Below, piece after piece: positions 25,886-35,147 of a DNA stretch of 62,767 bases (positions are counted from its first letter, which is position 1; each line of letters begins with the position of its first letter). This stretch comes from an uncultured Porphyromonadaceae bacterium (GTDB lineage: Bacteria; Bacteroidota; Bacteroidia; Bacteroidales; Muribaculaceae): the NCBI GenBank assembly GCA_947175645.1, contig CAMWNP010000014.1, positions 1-62,767 on the forward strand, written 5' to 3'. Under the pieces are notes generated by a model. It saw only the letters and a list, made by a program, of their open reading frames with translations, ran no database searches and was not told the origin of the DNA. The translations under genes were made by a program, and so were the position numbers.

Positions 25886-26707
25886 ATGTCAACACGAATT
25901 TGGAAAAAAATAAAGGATTACCAGGATATCCTTTTTGAGTTTCATGAAGGTATAGCAAAAATCACCATCAACCGTCCTGAAGTATACAATGCTTTCCGTC
26001 CGCAGACAAACTTTGAGATGCTTGATGCGATGAACTATTGCCGCGAAACCCCCGAGGTGGGTGTGGTAATCCTTACCGGTACAGGAGACAAATCATTCTG
26101 TTCCGGAGGTGACCAGAAGGTGAAAGGTATAGGAGGCTACATTGATGAAAATGGTGTACCCCGCCTGAATGTGCTTGATTTGCACAAGGCGATACGATCA
26201 CTTCCCAAGCCTGTAATAGCCATGGTCAACGGCTATGCGGTAGGTGGAGGAAATGTTCTTCAGGTGGTGTGTGACCTCACTATCGCATCGGACAACGCCA
26301 AATTCGGACAGACCGGTCCGAAAGTGGGCAGTTTCGATGCCGGGTTCGGTTCGTCATATCTCGCCCGTTGCGTTGGTCAGAAAAAAGCACGCGAAATATG
26401 GTTCCTTTGTAAACTCTACACCGCCCAGGAAGCACTCGAAATGGGTATGATCAACAAGGTGGTTCCTTTTGAGCGCCTTGAGGATGAGACAGTTGAATGG
26501 TGCAAGATTATGCTGCAGCGTTCACCCATGGCCCTGCGTATGATCAAGCGCGGACTTAACGCGGAACTTGACGGACAGCGCGGTCTGATGGAATTTGCGG
26601 GTGATGCCACACTGATGTATTATCTGATGGCAGAGGCTCAGGAAGGTAAAAACGCATTCCTTGAGAAACGTGATCCCGACTTCGGTCAGTTCCCTAAATT
26701 CCCCTGA
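25886..26707 (+). CDS. menB: 1,4-dihydroxy-2-naphthoyl-CoA synthase
   Basis: The protein has 273 residues of the crotonase fold. It closes the second ring of the naphthoquinone from o-succinylbenzoyl-CoA. [11 protein letters not shown], the oxyanion-hole [11 protein letters not shown] and [38 protein letters not shown] are all MenB-like. It starts 3 nt after menD and shares one base with menC (TGATG). Confidence 0.96.
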
Positions 26708-27735
26708 TGAAACATCCGGAATATTCCCGATATGACCTGGTCTTCAAAGAGCCCGCTATAACTTCACGCTCCACAATGCTGCATAAGGAGACATATTTCA
26801 TCAGGATATTTGATGAAACTGTCCCCGAGGGTAGCGTTGTGGGTGAGGTACCCCTGTTTCGCGGACTCAGTGCCGAGGATACGCCGGGTTTTGAACAGTC
26901 GCTGCGTGAGTATTGCAGCGGTTATCCCGACGCCGGTTATCCTTCAATGAGTTCGTTGGCTTTTGGAATTGACTCTGTCAAACAGCAAATTTCGTTACTG
27001 AATAATCCGGATGAGGATGAAATTCGGATACCGATAAACGGGCTGGTGTGGATGGGTGACAAACGGACCATGTCAGGCAGGATACGGCAGAAACTTGATG
27101 CGGGATTCCGCTGTGTAAAATTGAAAATCGGATGTATAAAGTTTGAAGATGAACTTGATTTGCTGCGATATATTCGCAATGAATTCAGTCCGTCCGACCT
27201 CGAACTGAGAGTTGATGCCAATGGTGCATTCACGCCTGCCGAGGCTCCGGAGAAACTCAAGCGATTGAGTGAGTTCTCTCTACATTCCATTGAACAGCCG
27301 ATACGGCAGGGGCAATGGGAGAGGATGAGAAAATTGTGTGAAACATCCCCCATCCCGATTGCGCTCGATGAGGAACTGATAGGACCCTGGTGTGCTCGAT
27401 CAGATGAGGAGATGGACAATCTTCTTGAATCCATTCGCCCTCAGTACATCATTCTGAAGCCCTCACTTTGCGGAGGTTTCAAGGCTGCCGACCGATGGAT
27501 ATCAAGAGCAGAGAAACTTGGCATAGGGTGGTGGGCTACTTCAGCGTTGGAGTCAAATATAGGACTGACGGCTATAGCGCACTGGGTCAAGAAACATAAT
27601 CCCGTTATACCACAGGGACTTGGAACAGGTGCTCTGTATACCAATAATTTTCCTTCACCCCTGCGCATGGAGGGAGATGAACTGGTTTTAGCCCTCACGG
27701 CTGAGTATATTATTCCCGAACTTGACTGGAAATGA
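26707..27735 (+). CDS. menC: o-Succinylbenzoate synthase
   Basis: The protein has 342 residues of the enolase superfamily. It dehydrates SHCHC to o-succinylbenzoate. The catalytic lysine region is CVKLKIG, metal ligands lie in LRVDANGAF and SIEQPIRQGQ, and the second lysine is in QYIILKPSLCGG. It overlaps menB by 1 nt and menE by 4 nt (ATGA). Confidence 0.94.
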   Translation: MKHPEYSRYDLVFKEPAITSRSTMLHKETYFIRIFDETVPEGSVVGEVPLFRGLSAEDTPGFEQSLREYCSGYPDAGYPSMSSLAFGIDSVKQQISLLNNPDEDEIRIPINGLVWMGDKRTMSGRIRQKLDAGFRCVKLKIGCIKFEDELDLLRYIRNEFSPSDLELRVDANGAFTPAEAPEKLKRLSEFSLHSIEQPIRQGQWERMRKLCETSPIPIALDEELIGPWCARSDEEMDNLLESIRPQYIILKPSLCGGFKAADRWISRAEKLGIGWWATSALESNIGLTAIAHWVKKHNPVIPQGLGTGALYTNNFPSPLRMEGDELVLALTAEYIIPELDWK

Positions 27736-28685
27736 AATTAACCCAAACGACTCCTGAAACTGAGGATTTCCTCAAAGAGTGGTATTCCGACAGTGAATAT
27801 GTGACAGCACATACATCCGGTTCTACAGGTGTTCCAAAAGAGATTAAGTTGCTGAAGCAGGATATGATAGCCTCCGCTTCGGCAACAAATCGTTTTTTTA
27901 ATATAACCGAATCTTCCCGACTCGTATCGCCACTTTCAGCATCATATATTGCCGGTAAGATGATGATAGTCAGAACGGTTCTCGCGGGGGCTACCTTGGA
28001 GATGCTTACTCCGTCCAATCAGTTGAATCTGCATGGCAGGATAACGCTTCTACCTATCGTGCCGTCGCAGATTGAATCGTTGATGACTTATGCGGACAGT
28101 GACGTGAAGATAGATAATGTGATTGTGGGGGGAGCGCCGATGACACCCGACATGGAGTGTAAACTCGAATCTTTTCCTGCAAACTGCTATGCCACATACG
28201 GAATGACCGAGACCTGCAGCCACGTTGCAATTCGTAAGGTAGGCTCGCCATACTTTCGTGCTCTTCCGGGTGTAAGATTTGAAGTGGACACATCATCGAG
28301 ATTACTGCTCCGCCTGCGCAATTTCAGTTTTGATGTACTGCAAACCAATGATGTGGTGGAGTTGCGGAGCCACGACTCATTCCGCTGGCTCGGTAGGTTT
28401 GATAATGTAGTGAACAGTGGAGGAGTGAAACTGTTCCCGGAGGAGATAGAGCAGGAGATTGCCCCATACATAAAGGGAGAGTTTTATCTCGGCGCTATGT
28501 CTCACGCAAAGTGGGGAGAACAGTTGGTTTTATGTGTGACACCTTCCACGGTGGTTGATAGCGAGGCTATGCAAATGGCAGTACCGCATATTAAACTACC
28601 CAAGAAAACTGTAATTCTTGAAAAGTTTGAATATACATCAAACGGTAAAATCAAACGTCTGATTCCCGCCCGATTCAAGGAGTAG
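27732..28685 (+). CDS. menE: o-Succinylbenzoate-CoA ligase, short form
   Basis: The protein has 317 residues of the ANL superfamily. It is clearly shorter than the ~450-490 residues of E. coli or Bacillus MenE, as in many Bacteroidota. The P-loop HTSGSTGVPKEI, the YGMTETCSHVAIR core and the hinge/C-terminal SNGKIKRL are present, so the catalytic parts are kept. It activates o-succinylbenzoate with ATP and CoA. Its last 48 nt overlap the convergent ogt gene. Confidence 0.93.
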   Translation: MKLTQTTPETEDFLKEWYSDSEYVTAHTSGSTGVPKEIKLLKQDMIASASATNRFFNITESSRLVSPLSASYIAGKMMIVRTVLAGATLEMLTPSNQLNLHGRITLLPIVPSQIESLMTYADSDVKIDNVIVGGAPMTPDMECKLESFPANCYATYGMTETCSHVAIRKVGSPYFRALPGVRFEVDTSSRLLLRLRNFSFDVLQTNDVVELRSHDSFRWLGRFDNVVNSGGVKLFPEEIEQEIAPYIKGEFYLGAMSHAKWGEQLVLCVTPSTVVDSEAMQMAVPHIKLPKKTVILEKFEYTSNGKIKRLIPARFKE

Positions 28686-29592: not shown

Positions 29593-30909
29593 TCAGAATG
29601 TGAATGACGCCATGAGGTTAGCACGATGTGCTGCCCGTCCCACTCCAGATATGTTTCTGCGATAGCCGTAGTCAAGTTCAGCCGCAACAGTCACACGTGG
29701 AAGAATGCTCCAGAATATGTTAGCACAGCCGAAGATGCCATATTTGTACTCATCCGGATTCGTACCATCCTTAGGGAGAAAGCGTGTCTCGCTCGCCGAA
29801 ATAGTGGCGAATAGATTAGGACGGAAATTATATTGAACTCCGACATTCCATCCGTAGGAGGTAGGTGCGTAGAGTTTGGTCGGGTCTCCGGGAGTGACCA
29901 CCAGGTCGTATGCTCCATAAAGCAGATCTCCTCCAAGTCCGGCATATCCTTTGCCATAGTTTGCAGTCAGATAGGTGGTTATTCGGTCATGGGGATGTGC
30001 TACGGAACTTAACTGTACGCCCCAGCCTGCAAGGTTGTGGTTGGTTGAAGTCACCATGTCGCGGTAGGACAGAGATCTTACAATTCCGCTCAGTCTCACA
30101 TGTTGTCCTTGTTGCCATTCATACTGAACAAGTGCAGCAAAATCGGGGAGCCACTCGCTGACGGGTCGGGTGTTCTGATTATCTGCCGCAACCATTGTCG
30201 ATGGGGTTTCGGCTGATACTCCGACATACCAATGCTGTTTGAACTGAGGCATATATCTTACGAGAACAGATGTGGCGGAAAACTTATTGTTCGGACCGGC
30301 GGCATCTACTACCGGCGGCAGTGCCGAGGGGTCGGAAAATGTTGAAGCGGCATAACCGAATGTGAAATCATGAACCGTAGCGTATGCTTTTTTCAGTTTG
30401 AAGTCACGACCCTGATAGCCTGTGAAGTCACTTTCGATATATAATTGATACTCACCGAATACGCTGTTTTTGCCTATAACCCTGAAAAAGAGATAAGTGC
30501 CGGAAGGTACTGTGGCAAAGTGGCGCATTCTCGCAGGATCGGCGGGGATAGGTATGGTGTAAGGTGCGAAGGCACTGGATGGAACAGCACCGCCCCAGTC
30601 ATAATAGGCTCGCATACGCACACCTCCACCAATACCCATTGAAAAATTGTTATCCTTGCTCATGAAAAGGAAGTAGGGTGCGTCAGGATCCATGAAGTGA
30701 CGGAATTGATCATAGTAAAACATTGTCACTTTCCTGCGTATGGAATCAATATCATTCTGACGTAAGGTTTCCGATTCCGGACGCCCGTCAATATATACAA
30801 TCTTAGTTGATGCCGCTTTCTCACTGATCTGTGAGTCAGGCATACTCTGTGATACTCCTTGCAAGCATGTAAAGAAGGCAAATGTAGTTGCCAACAGTGA
30901 TGACTTCAT
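29593..30909 (-). CDS. DcaP-like outer-membrane beta-barrel protein
   Basis: The protein has 438 residues. A signal peptide covers 1-20 (ending GVSQ). A periplasmic N-terminal helix region follows (SETLRQNDIDSIRRKVTMFYYDQ). Then come alternating amphipathic beta strands with DNNFSMGIGGGVRMRAYYDWGG, ending in a C-terminal Phe, the outer-membrane assembly signal. The layout fits DcaP-type trimeric porins, which take up dicarboxylates or similar acids in Acinetobacter. The substrate here is unknown. It has no clear promoter motif upstream. Confidence 0.72.
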   Translation of the reverse strand: MKSSLLATTFAFFTCLQGVSQSMPDSQISEKAASTKIVYIDGRPESETLRQNDIDSIRRKVTMFYYDQFRHFMDPDAPYFLFMSKDNNFSMGIGGGVRMRAYYDWGGAVPSSAFAPYTIPIPADPARMRHFATVPSGTYLFFRVIGKNSVFGEYQLYIESDFTGYQGRDFKLKKAYATVHDFTFGYAASTFSDPSALPPVVDAAGPNNKFSATSVLVRYMPQFKQHWYVGVSAETPSTMVAADNQNTRPVSEWLPDFAALVQYEWQQGQHVRLSGIVRSLSYRDMVTSTNHNLAGWGVQLSSVAHPHDRITTYLTANYGKGYAGLGGDLLYGAYDLVVTPGDPTKLYAPTSYGWNVGVQYNFRPNLFATISASETRFLPKDGTNPDEYKYGIFGCANIFWSILPRVTVAAELDYGYRRNISGVGRAAHRANLMASFTF

Positions 30910-31079: not shown

Positions 31080-31109
31080 TTGTGGAATAAAAAAATAATA
31101 CTAACTTTG
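31080..31109 (+). promoter_or_regulatory. Promoter of the aromatic amino-acid operon
   Basis: TTG (31080-31082), a 19-nt spacer and TAACTTTG (31102-31109) match the Bacteroidota consensus. The expected start near 31116 gives a leader of about 165 nt that contains a leader peptide and alternative hairpins. Confidence 0.8.
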
Positions 31110-31134
31110 CACTATAAATTTTAGAAAAGAATTA

Positions 31135-31191
31135 ATGTACTCCCGATTTTGCAAATATTATTACTTTTATTATTTTATTTGTAATAAATAA
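31135..31191 (+). CDS. Leader peptide rich in Tyr and Phe (attenuation)
   Basis: The 18-codon ORF starts at the ATG at 31135, ends with TAA at 31189-31191 and encodes MYSRFCKYYYFYYFICNK. Six of 18 residues are Tyr and three are Phe; codons 8-14 are all Tyr or Phe. It lies about 20 nt after the predicted transcription start and 88 nt before the prephenate dehydratase ATG. The downstream genes make precisely Phe and Tyr. This matches classic leader peptides such as PheL, in which stalling at scarce-tRNA codons controls termination. A-rich GAAAAGA precedes the ATG. It is inferred from sequence only. Confidence 0.82.
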   Translation: MYSRFCKYYYFYYFICNK

Positions 31192-31262
31192 AATCGGGAA
31201 CTAACGCAGTAAAAATTATATTTCATATTAATATAAATCCCGGTTGCTTCCGGGATTTTTTT
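31142..31262 (+). promoter_or_regulatory. Transcription attenuator with mutually exclusive hairpins
   Basis: Segment 1, CCCGATTTT (31142-31150), pairs perfectly with segment 2, AAAATCGGG (31190-31198), reinforced inside by TTATTAC/GTAATAA (31158-31164 with 31181-31187). Segment 2 can instead pair through 31192-31199 with segment 3, TCCCGGTT (31238-31245), 8 bp with one G-U. Segment 3 also forms the terminator stem. A ribosome stalled on the Tyr/Phe codons would mask segment 1, freeing 2 to pair with 3 and block termination. A ribosome reaching the stop would cover segment 2 and allow termination. Confidence 0.78.
31236..31262 (+). terminator. Leader terminator (attenuator hairpin)
   Basis: AATCCCGG (31236-31243) pairs perfectly with CCGGGATT (31250-31257) around a 6-nt loop TTGCTT, followed by a run of Ts to 31262. 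It is a strong intrinsic terminator located upstream of the first structural gene (ATG at 31280), so it must be regulated or read through. Confidence 0.9.
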
Positions 31263-31279
31263 GTGACTAATACTTAAAT

Positions 31280-32131
31280 ATGACAAGTCAGAACTCATAT
31301 AAGGTGGCCATTCAGGGTATCGCAGGATGTTTCCATGATGCCGCTGCGCGTAACTTTTTCGGGGAAAGAATGAGTGATGCTGTTCCTTGTGACACTTTCC
31401 ACCATTTGTTCGATGCCTTGGCTGCCGATGCGTCGCTGCTGGGGATTGTGGCTATCGAGAATACTATTGCAGGCTCGTTGCTTCAGAATCATGAGATGCT
31501 CAGGCAGAGCAATCAGGTGATAGTGGGTGAATACAAGATGCGAATTTCACATGTGCTCTGCGCCCTTCCGGGTGAAACCCTCGAAACTCTATCTGAGGTT
31601 AACTCGCATCCTATGGCTCTTATGCAGTGCGAGCAATATCTGATGCGGCATCCGCAGTTGAAAATGATTGAGAAGTTTGACACTGCCGGCAGTGCTATGG
31701 AAATAGCCCGGGATAAACTTACAGGACATGCTGCCGTGTGTGGCGAGTATGCTGCAAATCTTTACGGACTTGACATTCTTGAAAAAGGGATTGAAACAAA
31801 TAAGCGAAATTTTACCCGTTTCCTGATTCTGGCTGACCCGCTGATGGCCCAGGAACTGACTCCTCGACAGGAGTTGCTTAACAAGGCTTCGCTTGTTTTT
31901 ACTCTCCCGCACACCAATGGTGCCCTATCAAAGGTTCTGACAATTTTCTCATTTTACGATATTAATCTTTCAAAAATTCAGTCTCTTCCTATTGTGGGCA
32001 GGGAGTGGGAATACCGTTTTTATATAGATGTCACATTTGACAGTTATATACGCTATCATCAGGCCATTCAGGCGGTCCGTCCCTTAATGAATGACTTCAA
32101 AATTTTAGGTGAATATGTTGAATTCCAATAA
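31280..32131 (+). CDS. pheA: Prephenate dehydratase with C-terminal ACT domain
   Basis: The protein has 283 residues. It converts prephenate to phenylpyruvate in Phe synthesis. The catalytic domain covers about 8-185, with the family motif KRNFTRFLIL near 174-183, where the Thr is catalytic. An ACT domain (about 200-283) has GALSKVL but reads KIQSLP where feedback-sensitive enzymes have ESRP. This variant may change Phe inhibition. It has no chorismate mutase domain; that activity is fused to DAHP synthase two genes on. It is first in the operon, behind the attenuator. Confidence 0.94.
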   Translation: MTSQNSYKVAIQGIAGCFHDAAARNFFGERMSDAVPCDTFHHLFDALAADASLLGIVAIENTIAGSLLQNHEMLRQSNQVIVGEYKMRISHVLCALPGETLETLSEVNSHPMALMQCEQYLMRHPQLKMIEKFDTAGSAMEIARDKLTGHAAVCGEYAANLYGLDILEKGIETNKRNFTRFLILADPLMAQELTPRQELLNKASLVFTLPHTNGALSKVLTIFSFYDINLSKIQSLPIVGREWEYRFYIDVTFDSYIRYHQAIQAVRPLMNDFKILGEYVEFQ

Positions 32132-33296
32132 GAAAATAAAGCCGGCACGCCGTCTGGACTCGGTTCAGGAATATTACTTCTCAAAGAAGTTGCGTGAGGT
32201 CGCGTCACTGAATGCCAAAGGTATGGATATAATTTCTCTTGGTATCGGAGGTCCGGATCTGCCTCCTCATTCATCTGTGATAGAGACAATGGTTGAGGAA
32301 ACCGTTAAGCCGGACGCTCATAGTTATCAACCTTTCATGGGGCTGCCGGAACTTCGCCAGGGGTTTGCCGACTGGTATAAGATGCACTATGGTGTTACGC
32401 TTGACCCGGCGTCGGAAATACTGCCGCTGATAGGCTCAAAGGAGGGTATACTCCACATCTCGCTCGCTTTCCTTAATCCCGGCGATGGTGTGCTGCTACC
32501 CAATCCCGGCTATCCTACCTATACATCAGTGAGCCGTCTGGTTGAGGCTCAGACATACTACTATGATCTGAAGGAGGAAAATGGCTGGTTGCCTGATTTT
32601 GACCAGTTGGAGTCAATGCCTCTGGAGAAAATAAAACTAATGTGGATAAATTATCCTCACATGCCAACAGGAACACCGGCCTCAATGAATCTGTTTCAGA
32701 AAATTGTGGCGTTTGGTAAAAAGCATGGCATTGTGATAGCACATGACAATCCCTACAGTTTCATTCTGAATGACAATCCTATCAGTCTGTTGCAGGTGCC
32801 GGGGGCGATGGATATTGCTATTGAGATGAACTCACTTAGCAAGAGCCACAACATGGCAGGATGGCGTATGGCAATGCTCGCAACTAATCCGGAGTTCCTC
32901 AATTGGATTGTCAAAGTAAAGTCAAATGTTGATTCCGGCCGCTTCAAACCTGTCATGAAAGCCGCTGCTAAGGCTCTCTCTTTACCGGATCAATGGTATA
33001 AGGATTTGAATGTCACATACGCTTCCCGACGAAAAATCGCCGAGCAGATCATGACAGCATTAGGGTGTTCTTTCCTTCCGTCTCAGAAGGGTATGTTCCT
33101 GTGGGGACGTATACCCGATGATAAGGAGAGTGCCGAACAAATGGCTGATGACATCCTGTATAATGCCAGAGTGTTCATCACTCCGGGATTCATTTTCGGA
33201 TCAAACGGCGAACGCTACATACGTATTTCACTTTGCGCATCAGAAGAGAATCTGAAACGCGCTTTAAAACGAATAGAAGAATATAATCATGAATAA
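32115..33296 (+). CDS. Class I/II PLP-dependent aminotransferase (aromatic operon)
   Basis: The protein has 393 residues of the fold type I aminotransferase family. The PLP lysine is K243 in MNSLSKSHNMAGWRMA. The pyridine-contacting region is INYPHMPTGTP, with Met183 where aspartate aminotransferases have Asn. Its place between prephenate dehydratase and DAHP synthase points to transamination of phenylpyruvate and 4-hydroxyphenylpyruvate. The ATG at 32115, 4 nt after AGGTG, is preferred over the in-frame GTG at 32109. It overlaps the end of pheA by 17 nt. Confidence 0.9.
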   Translation: MLNSNKKIKPARRLDSVQEYYFSKKLREVASLNAKGMDIISLGIGGPDLPPHSSVIETMVEETVKPDAHSYQPFMGLPELRQGFADWYKMHYGVTLDPASEILPLIGSKEGILHISLAFLNPGDGVLLPNPGYPTYTSVSRLVEAQTYYYDLKEENGWLPDFDQLESMPLEKIKLMWINYPHMPTGTPASMNLFQKIVAFGKKHGIVIAHDNPYSFILNDNPISLLQVPGAMDIAIEMNSLSKSHNMAGWRMAMLATNPEFLNWIVKVKSNVDSGRFKPVMKAAAKALSLPDQWYKDLNVTYASRRKIAEQIMTALGCSFLPSQKGMFLWGRIPDDKESAEQMADDILYNARVFITPGFIFGSNGERYIRISLCASEENLKRALKRIEEYNHE

Positions 33297-34362
33297 CTTG
33301 CAACCACTTGCATTTGATGGCGTAGAACTTGAAAAACCCATCATCATTGCCGGCCCATGCTCGGCAGAAACAGAAGAACAGGTACTGACCACTGCACGCG
33401 AACTCGCTTCATACGGGATTAAACTTTTTCGTGCCGGAATATGGAAACCCCGAACCAAGCCGGGTGGCTTTGAGGGCGTTGGCGAAGTTGGTCTGGAATG
33501 GCTGAAGAAAGTTAAGGAAGAAACAGGAATGAGGGTTTCTACCGAAGTGGCTAACCGAGGTCATGTTGAGGCTGCTCTGGGTGCCGGAGTTGATCTTCTC
33601 TGGATTGGCGCCCGAACCTCGGCAAATCCGTTTGCCATGCAGGAAATAGCCGATGCAATAGGCGAGATCAGTCCGGACACTCCTGTTCTGGTCAAAAATC
33701 CGGTGAACCCTGATCTGGAACTTTGGATAGGCGCGCTTGAGCGACTTCATAATGCAGGTGTCACACGTCTGGGTGCTATTCACAGAGGGTTTACCGCCTA
33801 TGGAAAACACCTGTACAGAAATATGCCTCAGTGGCATATCCCTGCGGAACTCCGCCGTCGTATTCCTCAAATTCCCATTATTTCTGACCCTTCACACATA
33901 GGTGGCAAGCGCGAACTTGTAGCACCTCTTGCCCAGCAGGCATTTGATATGGGTTTTGACGGACTGATCGTGGAATCACACTGCAATCCGGACTGCGCTT
34001 GGAGTGACAAAACACAGCAGGTGTCACCCGATGTGCTTAATTATATACTTAACACAATATCACTGCGCAACGAAAAATGCACTACGGAAAACATTACTCT
34101 TCTGCGTCAGGAAATTGACAGGCTTGACAATGACCTGCTTGAGGTTCTGAACAAACGTATGCGTGTATGTCGTGAGATCGGTCAATACAAAAAGGAGCAT
34201 AACATGCAGGTACTCCAGACCGGACGATTTGACTCAATCATCCAGTCACGTGTGAAACTGGCTAACGAGATGGGTATGAGCACTGAATTCATGCGTACCG
34301 TACTTATGGCTATTCATGAGGAATCAGTGCGTCAGCAGTTGGAAATTTTCAATAAACGATAA
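33289..34362 (+). CDS. Bifunctional DAHP synthase / chorismate mutase
   Basis: The protein has 357 residues. The N-terminal barrel (about 1-255) is a KDO8P-synthase-like (AroF/KdsA class) DAHP synthase, with IIAGPCSAE, AGIWKPRTKPGGFEG, RGH, KNPVNPD and SDPSHIGGKRE. The C-terminal ~95 residues are an AroQ-type chorismate mutase (EIDRLDNDLLEVLNKRMRVCREIGQYKKE). One protein thus does the first shikimate step and the first committed Phe/Tyr step. This order and fusion are established for Bacteroidota. It overlaps the aminotransferase by 8 nt. Confidence 0.94.
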   Translation: MNNLQPLAFDGVELEKPIIIAGPCSAETEEQVLTTARELASYGIKLFRAGIWKPRTKPGGFEGVGEVGLEWLKKVKEETGMRVSTEVANRGHVEAALGAGVDLLWIGARTSANPFAMQEIADAIGEISPDTPVLVKNPVNPDLELWIGALERLHNAGVTRLGAIHRGFTAYGKHLYRNMPQWHIPAELRRRIPQIPIISDPSHIGGKRELVAPLAQQAFDMGFDGLIVESHCNPDCAWSDKTQQVSPDVLNYILNTISLRNEKCTTENITLLRQEIDRLDNDLLEVLNKRMRVCREIGQYKKEHNMQVLQTGRFDSIIQSRVKLANEMGMSTEFMRTVLMAIHEESVRQQLEIFNKR

Positions 34363-34373
34363 TTGAAGACAAA

Positions 34374-35147
34374 ATGAAAATACTTATTCTCGGTGCAGGT
34401 AAAATGGGGTCATTTTTTTCTGACCTTCTATCCTTTGATCACGAGGTAGCCGTATTTGATGTTGACCGACACCGTCTGCGCTACTCCTTTAATGCGTTGC
34501 GGTTCACCTCATTGGAGGAGATTAAGGAGTTTGAACCCGAACTTGTCATCAATGCGGTGACAGTCAAATATACCATCCCTGCCTTTGGACAGGTTCTTCC
34601 ATATATTCCCGCCAACGCCATCATCAGCGACATAGCATCCGTGAAAACCGGATTACCGGAGTTTTATGAAAAGTGCGGACATCCGTTTGTGTCTACACAT
34701 CCCATGTTTGGTCCGACCTTTGCATCACTGAGTAACCTTGCTCAGGAAAATGCTATCATCATCACTGAGAGCAGCCATCTTGGAAAAACATTTTTCCGTG
34801 ACCTTTATAACTCCCTGCATCTTCATGTAGAAGAATATTCTTTTGAGGAACATGACCAAACCATAGCCTATTCTCTTTCCATTCCTTTTGCTTCAACTCT
34901 GGTATTTGGATCGATAATGAAACATCAGGATGCTCCGGGAACAACATTTAAACGTCACATGGCTATTGCACAGGGATTGATGAGTGAAGATGATTTCTTG
35001 TTGAGTGAAATCCTTTTTAACCCGAATACTCCAGGTCAACTCAAGCAAATTCAGCAAAAACTTGACGAACTCAGAGAAATTGTTGAGAAGCGTGATTCAG
35101 AGGCCATGAAGAATTTCCTGGAAAAAGTAAGACATAATATAAAATAA
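34374..35147 (+). CDS. tyrA: Prephenate dehydrogenase
   Basis: The protein has 257 residues, with an N-terminal Rossmann fold MKILILGAGKMGSFFSDLL. The prephenate-binding region is DIASVKTGLPEFYEKCGHPFVSTHPMFGPT. It oxidises prephenate to 4-hydroxyphenylpyruvate for Tyr. It has no mutase or ACT domain, so mutase activity comes from the fused DAHP synthase. It is the last gene of the attenuated operon and is followed by the hairpin at 35168-35206. Confidence 0.93.
   Translation: MKILILGAGKMGSFFSDLLSFDHEVAVFDVDRHRLRYSFNALRFTSLEEIKEFEPELVINAVTVKYTIPAFGQVLPYIPANAIISDIASVKTGLPEFYEKCGHPFVSTHPMFGPTFASLSNLAQENAIIITESSHLGKTFFRDLYNSLHLHVEEYSFEEHDQTIAYSLSIPFASTLVFGSIMKHQDAPGTTFKRHMAIAQGLMSEDDFLLSEILFNPNTPGQLKQIQQKLDELREIVEKRDSEAMKNFLEKVRHNIK

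Follow-up and report, generated by a model that had tools for sequence, protein, structure and literature searches.

A putative leader-peptide attenuator with mixed tyrosine and phenylalanine codons before the phenylalanine/tyrosine operon of Bacteroidales

The window, by which we mean the whole stretch of 62,767 nt analysed here (forward strand of contig CAMWNP010000014.1, assembly GCA_947175645.1, from an uncultured Porphyromonadaceae bacterium assigned by GTDB to the Muribaculaceae), carries a four-gene operon that begins with pheA (Table 1). A sequence-only reading of this DNA had assigned the operon to Phe and Tyr synthesis, and Pfam agrees with that assignment for all four genes. The position of the aminotransferase gene in the operon, together with the entry for a related operon in PMC1173090, suggests that its product is an aromatic (hisHb-type) aminotransferase. 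In the window's own genome (L296) the sole trpE-family match reaches 61.5 bits against a family cut-off of 517.7 bits, so far below it that the organism may be without tryptophan synthesis. A few kb upstream of the leader, at 26707-28685, lie two adjoining genes that resemble menC and menE of menaquinone synthesis, another pathway that uses chorismate.

Between a divergent ORF (29593-30909) and pheA lies a short leader ORF that starts with ATG at 31135 and ends with TAA at 31189-31191, and whose codons 8-14 read, in order, TAT TAT TAC TTT TAT TAT TTT. No Shine-Dalgarno sequence was seen before it by eye. The promoter that the sequence-only reading had placed upstream is present, but it is not of the sigma-70 consensus type, none of which is listed at that position; it is of the Bacteroidota type, for which we take TTG and TAnnTTTG as the consensus. 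Among relatives, 136 of the 150 leaders with enough sequence have TAnnTTTG no more than 100 nt from their ATG, vs 176 of 3000 mononucleotide shuffles, and the median distance from box to ATG is 23.5 nt. Downstream of the ORF, an intrinsic terminator is formed by a 9-bp stem (31235-31243 with 31250-31258) and seven T residues at 31256-31262, and 17 bases separate its end at 31262 from the pheA start codon at 31280. Two further pairings are possible. CCCGATTTT (31142-31150), which lies within the first leader codons, and AAAATCGGG (31190-31198) form a perfect 9-bp complement between regions 1 and 2, and AATCGGGA (31192-31199) can pair with TCCCGGTT (31238-31245) between regions 2 and 3 over eight positions, one of which is a G-U pair. 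The coordinates that had been given earlier for the leader ORF, the Tyr/Phe codons, the pairings and the terminator hold on direct reading. A scan of the whole window gave no leader-type ORF with a terminator other than the one before pheA, and in the same genome neither the hisG nor the ilvD region yielded, at simple thresholds, a His or Ile/Val/Leu leader of this kind.

Table 1. Features of the leader region and the downstream operon, in positions of the window.
Feature	Position	Strand	Basis or detail
Bacteroidota-type promoter	31080..31109	+	TTG 31080-31082 (-33 region); TAACTTTG 31102-31109 (-7 box, TAnnTTTG)
Leader peptide ORF, MYSRFCKYYYFYYFICNK	31135..31191	+	18 codons, read from sequence
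Region 1 (R1), partner of region 2	31142..31150	+	CCCGATTTT
Regulatory codons 8-14	31156..31176	+	each Tyr or Phe (YYYFYYF)
Region 2 (R2), candidate antiterminator strand	31190..31199	+	AAAATCGGGA; overlaps leader stop codon
Region 3 (R3), terminator 5' arm and partner of region 2	31235..31243	+	
Region 4 (R4), terminator 3' arm with T tract	31250..31262	+	arm 31250-31258; T tract 31256-31262
pheA, prephenate dehydratase	31280..32131	+	Pfam (PDT; ACT match under its cut-off)
Class I/II aminotransferase	32109..33296	+	Pfam for family
DAHP synthase-chorismate mutase fusion (DAHPS-CM)	33289..34362	+	PF00793 + PF01817
tyrA, prephenate dehydrogenase	34374..35147	+	PF02153

Chance tests on the window's sequence gave results of unequal weight. 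When the 300 nt of the leader region were shuffled with dinucleotides preserved, the leader score of 7 Tyr/Phe in 8 residues was reached in 2 of 5000 shuffles; the whole-leader fold had z = -3.8, with none of 200 shuffles as stable; and the duplex of regions 1 and 2 (-15.1 kcal/mol) was equalled in 5 of 2000. The duplex of regions 2 and 3 was equalled in 112 of 2000 shuffles, which is weak from one sequence, and the case for this pairing rests on relatives. At equilibrium the terminator (-13.3 kcal/mol) is stronger in the window than the antiterminator fold (about -10.7 kcal/mol), and antitermination would therefore have to be kinetic.

To follow the leader among relatives, PheA was searched for in genomes of the family (match in 129 of 199), of the order (139 of 295) and of a phylum sample (215 of 247), and named contigs with PheA (Bacteroidales, Muribaculaceae), the best 80 of 167, were taken in addition. 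Altogether 218 upstream stretches at family and order level, duplicates counted, were read, from which 183 unique regions of at least 320 nt and without N formed the shuffle-controlled set. The results showed that 143 of these 183 regions contain an ATG-started ORF with at least six Tyr or Phe in eight residues, a score found in 9 of 3660 dinucleotide shuffles and in none of the 183 reverse complements. All four codons TTT, TTC, TAT and TAC are used at the regulatory positions. With a threshold of five of eight, ATG or GTG starts and regions of at least 200 nt (7 shorter ones excluded), leaders were found in 73 of 105 family-level regions, named contigs included, and in 80 of 84 order-level regions. 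The terminator detector picked up a hairpin downstream of 130 of 154 leaders; in the other 24, by eye only, there is a G+C-rich hairpin, usually with an interrupted T tract. The scan outside the order took in the best 27 of the phylum sample's 212 other matches, allowed TTG starts as well and was run without shuffle control; 24 of these 27 pheA loci reach five of eight and 19 reach six of eight. In the closest relative, L002 (G134), whose PheA is 97% identical to that of the window and whose leader has a GTG start codon in place of the window's ATG, the 9-bp pairing of regions 1 and 2 is kept nearly whole, and region 2 is retained both there and in L003.

Leaders are lacking mainly where genes are close-packed: 32 of 105 regions at family level and 4 of 84 at order level have none, and these include 24 of the 32 regions in which pheA lies at most 70 nt from the preceding frame vs 12 of the 157 other regions. 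At L033, L034, L035, L036, L037, L040 and others, no more than about 70 nt separate pheA from an upstream gene, possibly metH or ychF judging by its C-terminus, and the attenuator seems to have been lost. At another locus, L127 (G362), the pheA copy has two in-frame stop codons, the leader is still Y/F-rich, and the genome gave no DAHPS-CM match at E 1e-40. Of the 199 genomes searched in the window's family, 70 gave no PheA match at E 0.001, among them 56 of the 142 of high quality, and phenylalanine synthesis may thus have been lost widely in this family.

Which amino acids the leader might sense can be asked of genomes in which the operon is split, and these form a natural test of whether codon identity tracks gene content. 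DAHPS-CM was sought in 85 genomes, including the window's own, and its location relative to pheA was judged by eye, the two genes being called linked when no more than about 4.5 kb apart on one contig; among the 86 pheA loci at order level, those of G362, G475, G307 and G249 were left out as unresolved. All 80 order-level leaders have at least two Phe in their best eight residues. Where pheA and DAHPS-CM are linked, one locus has no leader and every one of the 71 leaders found has at least one Tyr in its best eight residues (at least two in 69), whereas of the ten unlinked pheA loci seven have a leader, six of them Tyr-free in the best eight and one with a single Tyr. The difference in Tyr-free leaders (6/7 unlinked vs 0/71 linked) gives a Fisher p = 2.7e-8, uncorrected for kinship, and the six come from three genera in three families. 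The detached DAHPS-CM operon could be read in seven genomes (G221, G403, G323, G464, G212, G295 and G438) and is preceded in each by a separate leader containing 4-6 Tyr and 3-7 Phe codons; inspection by eye shows a terminator hairpin and T tract behind every one of these leaders, and an evident region 2 in all except G438. In G231, G408 and G467, where the detached operon is cut by contig ends, the remaining sequence showed no leader. When tyrA alone is detached (G330, G407, G234) no Y/F leader stands before it, which goes against a simple rule.

In these sequences the codon content of the leader follows the gene content when the operon splits, which supports the dual sensing of Tyr and Phe put forward by the sequence-only reading. 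Tyr outnumbers Phe in six of the seven detached-operon leaders; the exception, G464 (7 Phe, 4 Tyr), would fit an attenuator of the same kind that senses one amino acid only, with the codons of the other as passengers of AT-rich sequence, and such passengers are conceivable given that TTY and TAY are both AT-rich and differ by one letter. This is a highly improbable account of the data as a whole, since all 71 linked leaders hold both Tyr and Phe, Tyr disappears when pheA stands apart, and runs of other residue pairs occur in at most 33 of the 183 shuffle-controlled regions, every pair above 5 including Phe.

The geometry of the leader was analysed in 90 sequences. From the 154 leaders, the 24 without a detected terminator were dropped, as were those lying over 260 nt from pheA or having their terminator over 80 nt beyond the stop codon, leaving 116, and a leader that shared at least 35% of its 8-mers with one already kept was removed. 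Counted from base 1 of the final Tyr/Phe codon, region 2 starts 17 nt (IQR 15-19) downstream, the low end of this range being imposed by a search that started at +12, although a search begun at the first Y/F codon gave the same range for most leaders. With the leading edge of a stalled ribosome at +12, this start is just past the leading edge of a ribosome stalled at the last Tyr/Phe codon. Region 2 floats relative to the stop codon (IQR -22 to 0); its distance from the ATG (IQR 55-60, outliers being more frequent) is almost as constant as its distance from the Y/F run, and the two spacings are not cleanly separated. A ribosome at the stop codon would cover at least half of region 2 in 71 of the 90 leaders and less than half in 19. 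Under another explanation the ORF would code for a small protein with a function of its own, and the hairpin would be an ordinary terminator separating transcription units. This would account for a conserved ORF with its own promoter, and trans-acting leader peptides are reported (peTrpL, PMC7298713). But outside the Y/F run the leader sequence and the position of the stop codon vary between relatives, Y and F interchange, region 2 keeps no fixed position relative to the stop codon, and the hairpin stands between the promoter and the operon and has an arm that pairs alternatively, so that we give this explanation only a very slender chance.

Folding was limited to the RNA exposed before region 4 exists, RNA behind the ribosome being ignored. 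With the ribosome stalled at the Y/F run, region 3 is predicted to be paired upstream in 87 of 90 leaders, and in 3 of 90 once the ribosome has reached the stop codon, one unevaluable leader being set to zero. When spacers were shuffled, region 3 was paired in the stalled state in 911 of 1800 cases, and in 47 of the 90 leaders none of 20 shuffles matched the real value. The letters of regions 2 and 4 vary together with those of region 3 (at one position, C-G-C becomes G-C-G or T-A-T), compensating changes that are descriptive, since region 2 was selected as the best partner. Duplexes of regions 2 and 3 average -13.97 kcal/mol with their own partners vs -10.35 kcal/mol with swapped ones, a real mean that none of 2000 permutations reached, although swapping leaves effects of base composition and kinship in. 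The sequence-only reading had staked itself on finding the Tyr/Phe codons and an alternative pairing conserved in relatives: both are conserved across the order, and the rival pairing that it had described is present, the choice between regions 2 and 3 and regions 3 and 4 being the general alternative.

Of what marks a ribosome-mediated attenuator, a codon run for the product amino acids and an intrinsic terminator between leader and first gene are present here, and folding predicts an antiterminator that excludes the terminator and whose strand a stalled ribosome leaves exposed and a ribosome at the stop codon covers. We consider it very probable that the leader is an attenuator of this type that responds to how fully tRNA-Phe and tRNA-Tyr are each charged and that controls the operon of four genes. 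With Phe and Tyr plentiful, a ribosome translating the leader would reach the stop codon and cover region 2, so that region 3 would pair with region 4 and transcription would end near 31262. If either amino acid ran short, the ribosome would stall within codons 8-14 and leave region 2 free just outside its leading edge; region 2 would then capture region 3 ahead of the synthesis of region 4, and the polymerase would continue into pheA. A riboswitch or T-box, in which the RNA binds a ligand or a tRNA and the ORF is fortuitous, would likewise place a terminator and an antiterminator in a 5' UTR, but its probability is next to nil, as the codon run is the conserved part and no Rfam regulatory family is matched at gathering score by the window or by 20 of the relatives' upstream regions. 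At that score Rfam 15 gave no leader family (neither the Phe leader nor Bacteroid-trp, which we take to be a Trp leader, nor others) in the window or in the upstream regions of 20 relatives, the T-box covariance model matched in neither, and the sole match in the window was one tRNA elsewhere. At a permissive threshold the leader gave sub-threshold matches only, all to unrelated families.

A role for region 1 was considered separately. In the window it could sequester region 2 on a leader free of ribosomes, and termination would then be the default. The 9-bp pairing that the sequence-only reading had described is real in the window, as the shuffles indicate, but it does not appear to be general: across the 90 leaders the region-1 pairing has a mean z of -0.70 against shuffles, with 16% below -2. 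Region 1 was accordingly not retained as a general element, with the reservation that its duplexes average -9.12 kcal/mol with their own partners vs -7.22 kcal/mol with swapped ones (0 of 2000 permutations reach the own mean) and that 13 of 90 leaders have a duplex of regions 1 and 2 of -13 kcal/mol or better. Folding without a ribosome leaves region 3 mostly free in 24 of 90 leaders, the window included, vs a predicted capture of region 3 in 66. From these folds and the results for region 1, the window appears to have the classical four-strand layout and about three quarters of the leaders appear to be three-strand only.

The enterobacterial pheA and pheST leaders have a Phe-rich leader ORF, alternative hairpins and an intrinsic terminator before a Phe gene. 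Judged by this description and by Rfam, the leader described here shares the ORF, the alternative hairpins and the terminator, and it differs in that Tyr and Phe codons are mixed, a whole Phe and Tyr operon lies downstream, the promoter is of Bacteroidota type and Rfam gives no match at gathering score. The sequence-only reading had called such attenuators little described in the phylum. This stands for the leader peptide: in the open-licence PubMed Central literature, no title or abstract start among the matches listed describes a Tyr/Phe leader peptide or dual sensing in Bacteroidota, and an earlier description may exist. It does not stand for attenuation as such. Table 7 of PMC1173090 listed in 2005, from Merino's website, an attenuator before the pheA > hisHb > aroAI-beta-aroQ > tyrA operon of Bacteroides thetaiotaomicron, and this entry, the only mention that we found of control of the Phe/Tyr operon, concerns the same operon in a related organism but gives no leader peptide, codon content or mechanism. 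In addition, the relevant text of PMC9723704 reported in 2021 leader-peptide attenuation of amino-acid operons in Flavobacterium psychrophilum, the same proposed mechanism in the same phylum, and in that text no operon is named and codon content is not compared with gene content. Short ORFs reminiscent of leader peptides are noted in B. thetaiotaomicron 5' UTRs in the pertinent part of PMC7366714, a comparative study of attenuation from 2010 is cited in PMC4833913, and the Bacteroid-trp RNA (RF01692), a cis-regulatory candidate from Bacteroidetes given in Table 1 of PMC2864571, comes from the same phylum but is unmatched by the window.

The kind of control proposed would be classical attenuation, and its dual sensing, the re-division of codons and its breadth would be the new facts. 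Bacteroidales are a dominant order of gut bacteria, and leader-peptide attenuation appears to be widespread in a phylum whose ribosomes generally initiate with no strong Shine-Dalgarno signal. The tight spacing between codon run and antiterminator yields precise predictions for the bench. A broader proposal, that one leader reads Phe and Tyr across the phylum, that its codons are re-divided when the operon splits (Phe only for pheA, Tyr-bearing for the chorismate-mutase part), and that about three quarters of Bacteroidales leaders are three-strand with a default ON state, the rest including the window being default OFF, stands in our estimation at an even chance; if it is true, a three-strand leader left untranslated would read through. 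In 11 of the 151 leaders that reach six of eight (L029, L159, L164, L168, L170, L183, L184, L185, L193, L196 and L198) Trp lies within or beside the Y/F run, and these Trp codons may extend sensing to all three aromatic amino acids in some lineages.
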